Shown one piece after another: positions 27,648 through 32,635 of a stretch of DNA of 64,000 nucleotides. Both the position numbers and the translations under genes were made by a program. Position 1 is the stretch's first letter, and every line of letters begins with the position of its first letter. The notes beneath the pieces were generated by a model that was not told where the DNA came from, made no database searches, and saw nothing but the letters and a program-made list of their open reading frames with translations. Source of the DNA: Metabacillus flavus (GTDB lineage Bacteria > Bacillota > Bacilli > Bacillales > Bacillaceae); the NCBI RefSeq assembly GCF_018283675.1, contig NZ_JAGVRK010000001.1:1488001-1552000 (forward strand). Reading direction: 5' to 3'.

Positions 27648-28772
27648 ATGCTCTCATTGGAAAAATTGACTGCGATCCGCAGGGATCTTCATCAAATACC
27701 TGAACTCGGTTTTCAGGAATTAAAAACACAAAATTATCTTATTCAGTTCTTTGAACAGCTTCCTGCAGACCGGTTTGAATTAAAGAAATGGCGTACGGGA
27801 CTGCTTGTTAAAATAAAAGGAACCAATCCTGCTAAAATGATGGGCTACCGGGCGGATATCGACGGACTGCCGATCACGGAGGAAACCGGCTATCCCTTTT
27901 CATCCATTCATGAAGGGATGATGCATGCATGCGGGCATGATCTGCACATGACAATTGGGCTTGCCATTGCTGAGCATTTTGTCTATCATCCGATTTCTGA
28001 CGACCTCCTCGTAATTTTTCAGCCCGCGGAAGAGGGGCCAGGCGGGGCAAAGCCAATGATGGAAAGCGAGGAATTCCTGGAATGGAAACCCGATTTCATT
28101 ACTGCTCTTCATATCGCTCCTGATCTGCCGCAAGGAACCATTGGAACGAAAACCGGTTTGCTTTTTGCCAATACATCTGAGCTCTTTATTGATTTGAAAG
28201 GAAAAGGCGGTCATGCTGCCTATCCACATACAGCTAAAGATATGATCGTTGCCGCAAGCCAGCTGGTCGGGCAGCTCCAAACCATCATTTCCAGAAACGT
28301 CGATCCGCTAGACAGTGCGGTCATTACAATAGGGAAAATAACAGGCGGCACCGTCCAAAACATCATTGCAGAAAAAGCAAGACTGGAAGGGACAATCAGA
28401 ACCCTTTCCGCCCATTCGATGGGCAAAGTGAAAGAACGGATCGAAGCTCTTGTAAAAGGACTGGAAGTTGCTTATGAATGTGAAGCACATATCGACTACG
28501 GGGCAATGTACTATCAAGTCTTTAACGAACCTGAACTTACAGTGGAATTTATGGAGTTTGCTAAAAAACTTCCTTTTGTACAATTGGAAGAAAGCAAAGA
28601 AGCCATGACAGGAGAAGACTTTGGATATTTTCTATCTAAAATACCCGGCTTCATGTTTTGGCTTGGTACCGGCTCGGAATATGGTCTCCATCACAGCAAG
28701 CTGCAGCCTGATGAAACAGCAATGGAAACCGCCCTTCGAACAATGACCGCATATTTTTCTTTTAAGTCCTAA
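27648..28772 (+). CDS. dapL: N-acetyldiaminopimelate deacetylase
   Basis: 374 residues (B. subtilis YkuR 374) from the ATG at 27648 with GGAGG 7 bases upstream. It is an M20 amidohydrolase: the metal ligands appear in MHACGHDLH and [14 protein letters not shown], and a final His in [11 protein letters not shown]. The lid domain lies between about 180 and 290. It removes acetate from N-acetyl-LL-DAP, acting after DapH and an aminotransferase. It is 68 bases after dapH, in the same transcription unit. Confidence 0.96.
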
Positions 28773-28782
28773 ATTATGGAAT

Positions 28783-28827
28783 AAACACCTCCAATCTGAG
28801 GCACCTTATCAGACAGGAGGTGTTTTT
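28783..28827 (+). promoter_or_regulatory. Hairpin that buries the ykuS ribosome binding site and can act as dapL terminator
   Basis: AAACACCTCC (28783-28792) pairs fully with GGAGGTGTTT (28816-28825), with an inner CTGA/TCAG stem. The paired GGAGG is the ykuS Shine-Dalgarno, and the T-run before the ATG makes the structure terminator-like. Confidence 0.75.
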
Positions 28828-29073
28828 ATGCCAAGAATAGGTGTAGAACAATCATTAACCAATGTAGAAGAAGCACTAAAATCGATGGGCTATGATGTTG
28901 TTCAAATCCGAAGCGAAGAGGATGCCCAAAACTGCGACTGCTGCATCGTAACCGGTCAGGACAATAACATCATGGGAATCAGCAACACGGTCACAGAAGG
29001 TTCCGTTATTGAAGCAAGCGGATTATCAGCTGAAGAAATCTGCCAGCAGGTGCAGCATCGTTTTAATCAATAA
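28828..29073 (+). CDS. ykuS: UPF0180 family protein YkuS
   Basis: 81 residues, matching B. subtilis YkuS. It starts [12 protein letters not shown]-like (here [20 protein letters not shown]) and contains the Cys pair NCDCCIVTG and NIMGI, typical of UPF0180. The function is unknown. Its site is inside the hairpin described at 28783-28827, so expression may depend on coupling to dapL or on RNA folding. Confidence 0.92.
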
Positions 29074-29097
29074 AAAGCCAGCACTGCTGGCTTTTTT
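29073..29097 (+). terminator. Terminator of the dapH-dapL-ykuS unit
   Basis: AAAGCCAGC, ACT and GCTGGCTTT form a 9-bp stem followed by a T-run directly after the ykuS stop. Confidence 0.9.
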
Positions 29098-29136
29098 GTT
29101 TTTGGGGAAATGTTTGGTATGAAGGGACAGAGAGGG

Positions 29137-29743
29137 CGATGCCGCGCATTAGGAGAGAAGAGCGCACGATGCCAGGCAAGAATGCCGGGAATGGAGTGAA
29201 AGAGTGCATGATGCTAGGCAAGAATGCCGGGCATGGAGTGAAAGAGTGCACGATGCTAGGCAAGAATGCCAAGCATGGGGTAAAAGAGTGCGTGATGCCG
29301 GGCAAGAATGCCAGGCATGGAGTGAAAGGGTGCACGATGCCAGGCAAGAATGCCAGGCATGATGAGAAAAGTGTGCGATGCCAGGCAAGAATGCCAGGCA
29401 AACGTGAAAAAGGATGCAATGCCAGGCAAGAATGCCAGGTAAGCGTGAAAAAGGATGCGATGCCAGGCAAGAATGCCAGGCAAACGTGAAAAAGGTAGCG
29501 ATGCCAGGCAAGAATGCCGGGCAAACGTGAAAAAGAGTGCGATGCCAGGCAAGAATGCCAGGTAAGCGTGAAAAAGGTAGCGATGCCAGGCAAGAATGCC
29601 AGGCAAACGTGAAAAAGGTAGCGATGCCAGGCAAGAATGCCAGGCAAACGTGAAAAAGAGTGCGATGCCAGGCAAGAATGCCAGGCAAACGTGAAAAAGG
29701 ATGCAATGCCAGGCAAGAATGCCAGGCAAGAATGCCAGGCAAA
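29137..29743. repeat. Minisatellite, left part: about 14 units of 41-42 bp
   Basis: Units begin near 29168, 29210, 29252, 29294, 29336, 29377 and then every 41 bases to 29705, after a degenerate start at 29137. The consensus has two TGCCAGGCA palindromes separated by AGAA, then AACGTGAAAAAGG and a variable 3-6 bases. Outer units (29168-29340) differ, with GGAGTGAAAGAGTGCACGATGC, while inner ones are nearly identical. The minus strand is open in three frames only because the unit lacks stops there; I see no ribosome site, so I do not call a gene. Nothing else is recognisable in this stretch. Confidence 0.93.
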
Positions 29744-31110
29744 TGGTAAAGTCCATATAATTGTGTAAATAGAAAAAGGGTCATATCACCCTCATGTTAC
29801 AATGTTTTCGACCAAGAAAAAATGTAATGGAGGATGAATATGACCCAAATTAATCTTACCCTAAATGTAGAGGACTTAAAAGACCACCTCATGAATTCCA
29901 ACTTGGACGCTGTGGTGAAATCATCACTTGTCCTCATTCTCAATCAAATGATGGAAACCGAGAGGGATGAGCACCTGAATGCGGATGCTTATGAAAGAAC
30001 GAGTGCCCGTACAGACTACCGGAATGGCTATTATGACCGAGACTTTCTCGTCTCCATCGGAAAAATCAACCTGAAAGTCCCTCGTACCCGAAACGGGGAG
30101 TTTTCCACATCTGTATTCGAGAAGTATCAGCGTGCGGACCAAGCACTCGTCTTGTCTATGATAGAAATGGTCGTCAACGGGGTTTCGACCCGCAAAGTGA
30201 CGAAGATCATGGAACAGCTTTGCGGGGAAAGTGTGTCCAAGTCCCTTGTCTCCACGATCACCAAAAAACTTGATCCCATCGTGAACGAGTGGGCTAGCCG
30301 ACCCCTGAATGTCATGTACTACAAGTATGTGTTTGTGGACGCTTTGTATATTAAGGTCCGCGAACATCAGCGTGTAGTTTCCAAAGCCGTTTATGTGGCC
30401 GTTGGGGTCAACTCCCAGCTCAAACGGGAAGTCATTGGGCTGGCTGTCAATCATTCCGAATCCAAAGAAGGCTGGACGCAATTCTTTAGCTACCTCAAAT
30501 CCAGGGGATTTCAATCTCCCAAATTGATGATTTCAGACGCCCACAAGGGCTTGAAGGCAGCGATTCAGGAATCCTTTGTCGGAACCAGCTGGCAGAGATG
30601 CACGTTCCACTTTAAAAAGAACCTCTTTGACCGCATGCCGAAGAAACAGGCAGAAGAATTAAAACACGCCCTCCTGCGTATTTTTGATGCCACAAAACCA
30701 GAGGACGCTAGAGCTTTAAAAGAGGAGTTTATGCAGACCTATGATGGAGAGCGCGGATATGAAACGGTCTTGTCTCTATTGGACGATGGCTTTGAAGATG
30801 CCATCCAATTCATGAATGAGCCACTGGGCTTTCAAAAGAAGCTGCGGACCACGAACAATCTGGAACGCCTAAATTCGGAAATCAGGAGAAGAGAGCGTGT
30901 CATTCGGATCTTCCCCAACACCCAGTCTGCTTTTCGTCTAATCGGAGCTGTCTTGATGGACTATGAAAAATCTCTTGATCCTGGAGAAAGAAAATACATG
31001 TACGATGAGAAAGAGAACTAAGTTCTCTTCCTTTATAGATCCATACCCTATCCAATTTATAAGGTTGAAAACATGGTAATGAACTTTTACACAAAATAAT
31101 GGACTTGACC
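29744..31110 (+). mobile_element. IS256-family insertion sequence, intact, inside the minisatellite
   Basis: The ends are imperfect inverted repeats: GGTAAAGTCCATATAATTGT on the left and, read inward from the right, GGTCAAGTCCATTATTTTGT, both continuing GTAAA. The flanks both read CAGGCAAA (29736-29743 and 31111-31118), consistent with an 8-bp target duplication, although the repeat array itself contains this word. The element is about 1.37 kb with one full transposase gene. The left end may start at 29744 or 29745. Confidence 0.9.
29840..31021 (+). CDS. IS256-family transposase
   Basis: 393 residues from the ATG at 29840 with GGAGG 6 bases upstream. It is a mutator-type (IS256) DDE transposase: the first Asp is in FVDALYIKVRE, the second in LMISDAHKGLKAAI and the Glu in NLERLNSEIRRRERVIRIF. 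The zinc-free WQRCTFHFKKN segment between them is also typical. The frame is uninterrupted, so the element may be active. Its GC content and codon choice look slightly higher in GC than neighbouring genes. Confidence 0.95.
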   Translation: MTQINLTLNVEDLKDHLMNSNLDAVVKSSLVLILNQMMETERDEHLNADAYERTSARTDYRNGYYDRDFLVSIGKINLKVPRTRNGEFSTSVFEKYQRADQALVLSMIEMVVNGVSTRKVTKIMEQLCGESVSKSLVSTITKKLDPIVNEWASRPLNVMYYKYVFVDALYIKVREHQRVVSKAVYVAVGVNSQLKREVIGLAVNHSESKEGWTQFFSYLKSRGFQSPKLMISDAHKGLKAAIQESFVGTSWQRCTFHFKKNLFDRMPKKQAEELKHALLRIFDATKPEDARALKEEFMQTYDGERGYETVLSLLDDGFEDAIQFMNEPLGFQKKLRTTNNLERLNSEIRRRERVIRIFPNTQSAFRLIGAVLMDYEKSLDPGERKYMYDEKEN

Positions 31111-31492
31111 CAGGCAAACGTGAAAAAGGTAGCGATGCCAGGCAAGAATGCCAGGCAAACGTGAAAAAGAGTGCGATGCCAGGCAAGAATGCCAGGCAAA
31201 CGTGAAAAAGGATGCAATGCCAGGCAAGAATGCCAGGCAAACGTGAAAAAGGATGCAATGCCAGGCAAGAATGCCAGGTAAGCGTGAAAAAGGATGCGAT
31301 GCCAGGCAAGAATGCCAGGTAAGCGTGAAAAAGGATGCGATGCCAGGCAAAAATGCCAGGTAAGCGTGAAAAAGGATGCGATGCCAGGCAAAAATGCCAG
31401 GCATGATGAGAAAAGCGCACGATGCCAGGCATGATGAGAAAAGGGTGCGATGCCAGGCAAGAATGCCGGGCATTATGAGAAAAGAGAGCGGA
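31111..31492. repeat. Minisatellite, right part: about 9 units of 41 bp
   Basis: After the insertion sequence the same repeat resumes in the same orientation, with units at 31134, 31175, 31216, 31257, 31298, 31339, 31380 and 31421 (exact 41-base steps) and a shortened one at 31449. The last units change to CATGATGAGAAAAG, a variant found once near the left end as well. The array ends about 12 bases before a bidirectional terminator. No gene is seen here. Confidence 0.93.
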
Positions 31493-31504
31493 ATCCACAC
31501 CAAG

Positions 31505-31532
31505 CAAAAAAGAGCCTCTTCGGCTCTTTTTT
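31505..31532. terminator. Terminator of the mscS-type gene
   Basis: AAAAAAGAGCC and GGCTCTTTTTT form a tight stem-loop (loop TCTTC) at the end of the minus-strand channel gene. Confidence 0.9.
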
Positions 31533-32380
31533 CATGCATTTCCAGAGGGATCTTTCTTTTCCATATATACTTGATGCGGAAATGGAATTTCAATTCCATT
31601 AGCATCGAAGGCTTCTTTGAAAGCTTTTCTTAATACGCGTTCAGCTCCCCATTGTTCTCCGTTTTCTGTTTTTGCTATAACACGGATGACTACGTCTGAG
31701 GCCCCGAGGGTTTGTACACCGATTACGTTTGGACCTTCAACGATTGAAGGCATTTCTGCTGCTACTTTATCACAGACATCCTGCATGACTTTGATGGCGT
31801 GGTCGATATCATCGTCATAAGAGATTCCGATGTCAACAAGTGCGCGCATGTTGCCTCTGGTGTGGTTGCTCAGATTCGTGATTTCACGATTTGGGACGTA
31901 GTGCAGGGTGCCGTCAAACCCGCGGATTTGGGTGGTGCGAAGGCCTACCTGTTCAACGATTCCAGAGAAACCGGCTGTTGTGATGTAATCTCCGACATCC
32001 AGCTGGCGTTCGAGAAGTAGGAAAAATCCAGTAACAACGTCACTGACAAGACCCTGTGCACCGAATCCGATAGCAAGTCCCACTACCCCTGCTCCAGCAA
32101 GGAGAGCTGTGGCATCATATTCAAAGACCTGAAAGACCATTACGACGAAAATGAAAACCAGTATGTATCCAAAGACGTTTAAGGATAGGCTCTGCAAGGT
32201 CATTGCCCGCCCAGGGGATACCTGCTGCCGGTTTTGAACCTTTTGGAACGCTCTTTCAATGAGGCGGCTTCCGATTGCTTTGACAATAAGGAATGCGACT
32301 AAAATGATGATAAGTTTAAGTGTAATGATCCCTGCATTTGTCAGCAGGCCTGCCCAATTGATTTTTTGTATGATATCCAT
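31532..32380 (-). CDS. ykuT: Small-conductance mechanosensitive channel (MscS family) YkuT
   Basis: 282 residues from the ATG at 32380, with AAGGAAG 6 bases upstream. Three membrane segments lie in the first 120 residues, and the pore helix TM3 has the glycine/alanine pattern [23 protein letters not shown]. The beta domain with [11 protein letters not shown] and a C-terminal alpha/beta domain follow. It opens on membrane tension during osmotic downshock. B. subtilis YkuT is in the same position, between ykuS and ykuU. Confidence 0.92.
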
Positions 32381-32585
32381 TTGCATCTTCCTTTCTTTCC
32401 ATACAATAGGGGATAAGCTAATCATTTTGTTACCCTTCCACCAGCATGTTAAACTTAATATGCTCTGGGAAATGAAAAATCATTGATCAGTTTATCACAG
32501 GTTTTTTCGTATTAAAAACAAAAACCTTCATGTTTTGCTTGAATTAGGGTATAACAAGTAGAGTGTACCTGGGCATATTCGCTAA

Positions 32586-32635
32586 TTAAATTCATTATCA
32601 TTTAACATTGACTAAAAATAGCTATCTGCTATAAT
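32586..32635 (+). promoter_or_regulatory. ykuU promoter with Fur/PerR-like box
   Basis: A strong promoter, TTGACT (32608-32613), 16 bases, TATAAT (32630-32635), drives ykuU. Just upstream TTAAATTCATTATCA (32586-32600) has a perfect right half of the 7-1-7 Fur-family site and 11 of 14 matches overall. The remaining 337-base gap between ykuT and ykuU holds nothing else I can name. Confidence 0.55.

Follow-up and report, generated by a model that had tools for sequence, protein, structure and literature searches.

Between ykuS and ykuT, in a 64,000-nucleotide stretch of the Metabacillus flavus chromosome (this whole stretch is called the window here), lies a tandem array of 41-42 bp units. We consider it likely that this array is one locus of a dispersed family resembling repetitive extragenic palindromic (REP) sequences, served by a REP-associated tyrosine transposase (RAYT), a TnpAREP-like HUH/Y1 enzyme for single-stranded DNA that is encoded elsewhere on the chromosome, behind a sister array. 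The evidence comes from the family and its hairpin, the polarity of the arrays, the adjacency and co-occurrence of arrays and RAYT gene, purifying selection on that gene, and the exchange of array and part of the gene as one block. The decisive features, polarity along the direction of the replication fork and a RAYT beside a sister array, fall outside the window. Our best reading is a RAYT-dependent REP-like system in Bacillota that is built as direct tandem arrays.

The mechanism we propose is as follows. Fork passage would leave the sense strand single-stranded on the lagging-strand template, where it could fold into 22-nt hairpins. The RAYT would bind its cognate hairpins there, nick them and re-join them. 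Units would rarely spread to new intergenic sites, and arrays would often expand or contract in place, with slippage and recombination helping. Because the active strand must, in this proposal, be on the lagging-strand template, each replichore should show a single array polarity. Binding, nicking and transposition are what we infer from the observations below, as would be any benefit to the host.

Six genomes of the genus, G000 to G005, form the basis of the comparison; G000 is the window's own chromosome, G001 is complete and G005 is a draft. Gene calls and the orientation of neighbouring genes were taken from the lists of a simple open reading frame (ORF) script.

The hairpin family and its polarity

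Each unit consists of a 22-nt hairpin, TGCCAGGCA-AGAA-TGCCAGGCA, and a linker of 19-20 nt. As single-stranded DNA this hairpin (type A) closes a four-base loop with an 8-bp stem, which an A.A mismatch interrupts at its centre; its DNA fold of -7.4 kcal/mol (z -3.9) was equalled by none of 200 shuffles. The first-pass annotation of the window had described two independent palindromes per unit. The dyad words are indeed present, but the two 9-mers pair as one imperfect hairpin. Among 367 distances between hairpins (40 of the 49 A loci, four genomes), 245 measure 41 bp and 79 measure 42 bp. Linkers repeat and are homogenised inside each array and vary between arrays: over arrays only a mid-linker A-tract and a terminal loose G-N-R-A stand out, the latter forming the foot (commonest are GCGA, GGAA and GTGA). 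The conserved AACGTGAAAAAGG reported at first is the main linker of the window array and not of the whole family.

The A hairpin has 166 matches in G000 (at most 3 mismatches), which make up 13 arrays:

A arrays in G000: 781k, 907k, 947k, 1517k (the window), 2184k, 2687k, 2989k, 3122k, 3226k, 3445k, 3828k, 3842k
Variant A array in G000: about 1640k

The window array, originally taken to be private to ykuS-ykuT, is one of these 13. Two further types were searched within the genus. In G000, type B (TGTCAGACA cores; fold z -4.0) matches 12 times, at 7 sites, and in G001 it matches 32 times, at 9 sites; type C (TGTCCGGGA cores) has 90 matches, among the six genomes in G002 only. Adenine exceeds thymine on the sense strand in 38/38 A, 18/18 B and 5/7 C arrays measured. 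As in canonical REPs, A and B form a hairpin palindrome of 20-40 nt (that of C is not significant), and the copies are many and intergenic: in G000, every one of the 20 sites of type A or B falls between script-called ORFs. At 12 loci that were checked, matches on the opposite strand are not additional units but come from the hairpins already counted, matched in the other direction.

Arrays of type A occur in five of the six genomes (G000, G001, G002, G003 and G005, with the fewest matches, 9, in G003). They are absent from G004 and from all 98 genomes outside the genus that were searched (54 + 44). A scan across genomes with a 16-base pattern gave, among the matches listed, mostly isolated hits in unrelated phyla and several per record only in Bacillus sp. 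SJS contigs, the named distribution being incomplete. As a separate observation, the genus also contains other short repeated intergenic sequences of a GATATCGGACA type and a GTTGGCCCGTAAA type (L300, at about 1246.6-1247.8k of G001; L233:5560-6160; L299).

Both G000 and G001 start at dnaA (by eye), and we take a dif-like site, found with a pattern based on that of B. subtilis, to mark the terminus at 1.991 Mb in G000 and 2.035 Mb in G001. The sense strand is + before dif and - after it for 12/13 A and 7/7 B sites in G000 and for 12/12 A and 9/9 B sites in G001, so that polarity is kept at 19 of 20 sites and at 21 of 21 sites, respectively. Flank GC skew agrees with the strand of the array at 48 of 49 A loci from five genomes. 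The single disagreement (L243) is a tie between strands, and 4 of the 48 agreeing loci have a skew within 0.01 of zero, one of them being 947k (-0.002). The B loci of G005 agree with the skew in 7/7 cases (fetched loci, majority of matches). Apart from the exceptions given further on, the sense strand is the lagging-strand template. When orthologous sites are merged by hand, 37 loci with 2 exceptions are left; under an assumed leading-strand bias of 50%, 75% or 80%, a result of 35/37 has a probability of 5e-9, 0.002 or 0.014, respectively.

The low probabilities at 75% and 80% already speak against the idea that orientation follows transcription, according to which the arrays are RNA of the 3'-untranslated-region or terminator type and their polarity is a by-product of leading-strand genes. 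Most arrays do lie downstream of a co-directional gene, and 947k, the only site of G000 that is an exception by position, points the same way as the lagging-strand genes next to it. Four of the 20 sites in G000 (3122k, 3226k, 1261k and 2047k), though, oppose both neighbouring genes and yet follow the fork, and therefore transcription does not explain the polarity. A fifth opposing site reported by the script, 3828k, was discounted, one neighbour being a doubtful 107-aa ORF. Also, the window array lies outside both terminator-like hairpins of its surroundings. We regard a transcriptional origin of the polarity as extremely unlikely. From the three roles initially offered for the window array, that of a protein target fares best; a structured RNA is unlikely because array orientation ignores flanking transcription at the four sites.

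The RAYT gene and its adjoining array

The RAYT gene is located at G000:3,227,239-3,227,817 and encodes 193 aa; the 3226k array ends 198 bp away. The protein is a Y1/HUH transposase (Pfam Y1_Tnp, 3.1e-17), and a profile of 21 RAYTs had TnpArep, 4ER8, as its only match in the PDB at E <= 0.01 (E 1.4e-7). An alignment of 21 RAYTs, from 30 loci fetched, shows no variation at H61, H63, Y120 and N124, which corresponds to an HUH motif, a presumed catalytic tyrosine and an asparagine four residues downstream.

An orthologue of 74-100% identity is found only in G000, G001, G002, G003 and G005 (60 genomes searched), once per genome, and these are the same five that have A arrays. Some RAYT is present in 34 of the 60 genomes; G004 has only relatives of 46% and 35%. 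In 5/5 orthologue-bearing genomes an array of the 9-4-9 plus linker design lies 0.1-0.2 kb upstream of the gene:

G000 and G001: type A
G005: type B, 10 units
G002: type C, 23 units
G003: two decayed A-like copies

G003 has only these two copies, spaced by 31 bp. They stand beside a RAYT with one in-frame stop (L188), and this looks like decay of the system. Among G000, G001 and G005 the dN/dS ratio (nonsynonymous to synonymous substitution rate) of the RAYT is 0.09-0.15 (three of six pairs; the three G002 pairs are saturated). The gene is single-copy, vertically kept and under purifying selection, save for the N-terminal half, which has been exchanged between lineages. The type adjoining the RAYT is also the commonest type in three of four genomes: G000 (A 166, B 12), G001 (A 111, B 32) and G002 (C 90, A 16). 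Overall, the link between RAYT and arrays is strong but indirect.

The exchange is seen between G001 and G005, whose identity at 11 loci ranges from 94.0 to 99.4%. At the RAYT locus, a 5.1-kb stretch that stops about 0.1 kb short of the array is 99.3% identical. The two RAYT-adjacent arrays have no BLAST match to each other, and identity is 44-75% in the stretch that begins 120 nt ahead of the RAYT start codon and reaches about nt 270 of the coding sequence. It amounts to 86% after about nt 270 and to 97-99% from about nt 320, with 0-2 differences per 30 nt in the remainder of the gene. Downstream of it, identity is 86-91% for 150 nt and 98-100% beyond. Thus, the array and the N-terminal half were swapped together, as one block. 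Between G000 and G001, which both have type A, identity over the first ~200 nt of the N-terminal half is 94-98%, above the 89% of the locus.

This exchange bears on another explanation of the polarity, namely that the arrays are polar segregation or repair signals, comparable to FtsK orienting polar sequences (KOPS), SpoIIIE recognition sequences (SRS), architecture imparting sequences (AIMS) or Chi. A translocase or nucleoid protein would then read the direction of the terminus and selection would keep the orientation. Such signals would account for the near-perfect polarity about dif and for positions conserved between genomes of ~90% identity, and the spacing of 41-42 bp, although linkers differ, is close to four helical turns. 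They would not be expected to be swapped along with the coding sequence of a RAYT, as the adjoining array is, nor to differ in core between species (A, B, C) or to be missing, as type A is, from G004 and the 98 genomes outside the genus. Furthermore, there are only about 20 clustered sites, with 9/20 in the dif-proximal half of G000, whereas KOPS or AIMS are numerous short motifs whose density rises towards the terminus. We therefore consider segregation signals unlikely, and prefer a repeat system dependent on the RAYT.

Repeats around other RAYTs were considered as well. At 8 of 25 other RAYT loci (about 3.5 kb each) an 11-mer such as GGGACAGTCCC or GGTGCCAGGCA occurs at least four times in both orientations, against 0/62 control slices of 3.5 kb, which were taken from this genus and not from the genomes of the RAYT loci themselves. 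In at least five of six such loci that were inspected the copies adjoin the RAYT, in four on both sides. The eight loci (L190, L195, L198, L200, L203, L204, L211 and L214) carry odd palindromes such as GGGACAGTCCC, GGTGCCAGTCC, GGTGCCAGGCAC and GGGACGGTTCT in both orientations and are candidate REPIN-like families in Bacillota, REPIN denoting a REP doublet. A second RAYT of the genus (L255:2000-3900, at 3.79 Mb of G001) has inverted TTGCACTGACCCCC / GGGGGTCAGTGCAA palindromes on either side; the match to this RAYT in G000, at 3696k, splits into two overlapping pieces. This paralogue (~46%) was rejected as the owner of the arrays, its G001 copy having its own inverted TTGCACTGACCCCC. A second reason for the rejection is that hairpins of types A, B and C were found in none of seven further RAYT loci fetched (L254-L260). 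Given the 11-mers and TTGCACTGACCCCC, inverted REP-like repeats are frequent around the RAYTs studied here, and the direct arrays go with a single RAYT lineage. A 77-bp tandem repeat adjoins a RAYT of G054, which is more distantly related (L214:2031-2435).

The ykuS-ykuT junction

The features of this part of the window are listed below. The names ykuS and ykuT are those of the first-pass annotation; the assignments to UPF0180 and MscS are from our analysis.

28828..29073, + strand: UPF0180 protein (ykuS), 5' of the array; terminator-like hairpin at about 29075-29100, by eye
29137..29744, + strand: left part of the array, 15 hairpins, the first at 29170; degenerate half-units at the outer edge
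29745..31110, + strand: IS256-family insertion sequence (IS) within the array; limits by eye from the inverted ends GGTaAAGTCCAT / GGTcAAGTCCAT
29834..31021, + strand: IS256-family transposase, 395 aa, open frame
31111..31480, + strand: right part of the array, 8 hairpins; outer units degenerate
31532..32425, - strand: MscS-type mechanosensitive channel (ykuT); terminator-like hairpin at about 31505-31535, by eye

The two genes are convergent around the array. Tandem Repeats Finder reports 41-bp arrays at 29167-29729 and 31110-31403, and counting 22-nt hairpins with at most 4 substitutions yields 23, all on the + strand, with 15 to the left and 8 to the right of the IS. An array of about 23 units in the same orientation, split by IS256, had been read correctly from the start. 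The total of the earlier 14 + 9 split also holds; its division differs because degenerate units at the edges, and an overlap of 13 nt where the array meets the left end of the IS, were counted differently. The transposase belongs to the IS256 family (NCBIfam NF033543, 392 bits against a cut-off of 150), and both ends of the IS fall inside the array. By eye, the flanks CAGGCAAAT (before) and CAGGCAAAC (after) match in 8/9 bases, whereas a script found no exact target duplication of 8-9 bp. The element is a later, secondary arrival outside the repeat system.

An Rfam scan of 28700-32600 at E <= 1 gave three sub-threshold matches, none within the array, in line with the initial view that no described family is known to have this unit. 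Clustered regularly interspaced short palindromic repeats (CRISPR) were rejected on the grounds that linkers repeat within the array and that the flanking genes encode UPF0180 and MscS proteins; a genome-wide search for cas genes was not made.

Relatives carry the array at the same junction, with 23 hairpins in G000, 3 in G001 and 9 in G005. Its presence in G001 and G005 means that it is not an artefact of one assembly, and a copy number that differs between relatives is what the first-pass annotation had anticipated. As nearly all sites are shared by G000, G001 and G005 while unit numbers change, expansion in place dominates among these three. Empty sites had been expected between G000 and G001, but most sites are shared, and 1640k/1687k and 1115k proved to be the same site in a diverged or single-core state. 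The intergenic stretch at 3828k is a different one in G001, where it is longer and contains a few cores. Between more distant genomes the sites differ: the G002 arrays 1400k and 1666k, the latter being common to G003, correspond to sites without an array in both G000 and G001.

A plain minisatellite, in which units duplicated by chance are spread and made uniform through gene conversion, slippage and unequal crossing over alone and no enzyme is devoted to them, would produce just such variation in copy number. It would also explain linkers that are homogenised within arrays and different between them, and the 13-nt duplication that separates G001 from G000 at 1115k. The same hairpin, however, is found at 13 distant loci with dissimilar linkers of equal length, and slippage offers no means of carrying a unit to a remote locus while keeping its orientation. 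Nor does such a process account for the replichore polarity and the link to a RAYT. Hence we give this explanation little credence, and retain the dispersed family served by a RAYT.

Weighing of the evidence and known systems

A number of observations weigh against our reading. Concerning the repeat, the GT[AG]G 5' foot of canonical REPs was not found in the A arrays, and array units are direct tandem copies instead of the inverted REP pairs of REPINs or bacterial interspersed mosaic elements (BIMEs). For the C-type hairpin of G002 the predicted fold is poor (z -0.7, not significant), and the frequent variant TGCCAGGGA disrupts one base pair. Several sites that enter the counts consist of just one hairpin, and at 3 mismatches the number of B matches comes close to that of the control (0-1 per genome). 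Concerning polarity, 947k in G000 is an exception by position; it lies within a 1.26-kb segment (L052:4318-5576) that is absent from G001 and contains a deaminase-like gene by sequence reading. In G002 the loci 391k, 1073k and 1630k, found with the C pattern, disagree with the skew. The latter two agree only when oriented by the A/T skew of the array, a criterion chosen after seeing the data, and 391k is then still an exception; the unit orientation of C-type arrays is partly ambiguous.

As for the enzyme, the NCBIfam model for REP-associated tyrosine transposases (REP_Tyr_transpos) gives 68.1 bits, under its cut-off of 80, and the single RAYT sequence has no PDB match at E <= 0.001. Co-occurrence within one genus represents phylogenetically one or two events. 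In G005, B adjoins the RAYT (62 matches) but A is commoner (83), in a draft whose arrays may be collapsed. Finally, the A and B sites are nearly all common to G000, G001 and G005 and recent jumps are not seen; such fixed positions are also compatible with amplification in place of old sites. A place of the enzyme among the RAYTs is supported, save for the NCBIfam cut-off, and the repeat is neither a canonical REP nor a REPIN; that the whole functions in the manner of a REP system is still the best explanation.

The closest parallels are the REPtrons of E. coli, Pseudomonas and Stenotrophomonas. They share with our system hairpin repeats that are intergenic and adjoin the gene of a Y1/HUH enzyme related to TnpArep 4ER8, several repeat classes with one orthologous RAYT, and an imperfect, mismatched stem as described for E. 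coli REPs in PMC8266576. Different here are the lack of a GT[AG]G foot, the direct tandem units of 41-42 bp, the Bacillota host and the array-specific linkers. PMC6006769 gives GT[AG]G at the 5' foot for canonical REPs and describes non-consensus classes as well.

Tandem REP arrays and the switching of REP classes are already known in Pseudomonas. According to Bertels and Rainey 2011 (PMC3116915), P. fluorescens SBW25 has REP arrays in ordered tandem form, of which five run forward at ~2 Mb and six run in reverse at ~4 Mb, and REPIN clusters beside RAYT genes. Its units, unlike ours, are GI/GIII REPs 72/112 bp apart, with the REP doublet (REPIN) as basic unit, and the sections consulted contain no analysis of fork polarity across many loci or genomes. 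The 'orthoswitch' (Nunvar 2013, PMC3686654) likewise combines an orthologous RAYT with different repeat classes between strains, older classes remaining. By its authors' own account the mechanism is a matter of speculation, whereas here a block exchange is visible between near-identical genomes. Conceivably, and we put this forward as a tentative idea, the array and the RAYT N-terminal half form an exchangeable specificity cassette that would be the physical mechanism of the 'orthoswitch'; if repeats were moreover written only on the lagging-strand template, the arrays would amount to fossils from which the direction of forks in Gram-positive chromosomes could be read.

For IS200/IS605 elements (IS608), the review PMC5371812 reports that single-strand transposition prefers the lagging-strand template and that orientation follows replication, as with our arrays. 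Other than in that family, the RAYT has one orthologue per genome and scores 27 against a cut-off of 55 with the IS200 model; no other IS-like frame or repeat ends were noticed beside it, although these were not searched systematically. Variable number tandem repeats (minisatellites) resemble our arrays in their head-to-tail units and strain-variable copy number, and differ in that here one hairpin family occupies many loci with a polarity and a linked transposase.

The dissemination of REPs is described as poorly understood in the abstract of PMC8266576. Against this background, the tandem format with fork-linked polarity in several genomes leads to a testable prediction of the strand on which the enzyme works, and the swap of the repeat together with half of the enzyme in near-identical genomes points to the half responsible for recognition. 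It also places a REP-like system in Bacillota: of two RAYT papers, the searched text of PMC2817692 does not contain the words 'Firmicutes' and 'Gram-positive', nor that of PMC6006769 'Firmicutes' and 'Bacill', though broader RAYT surveys may name the phylum. In practice, the arrays themselves should be useful for typing strains and for marking the direction of replication.

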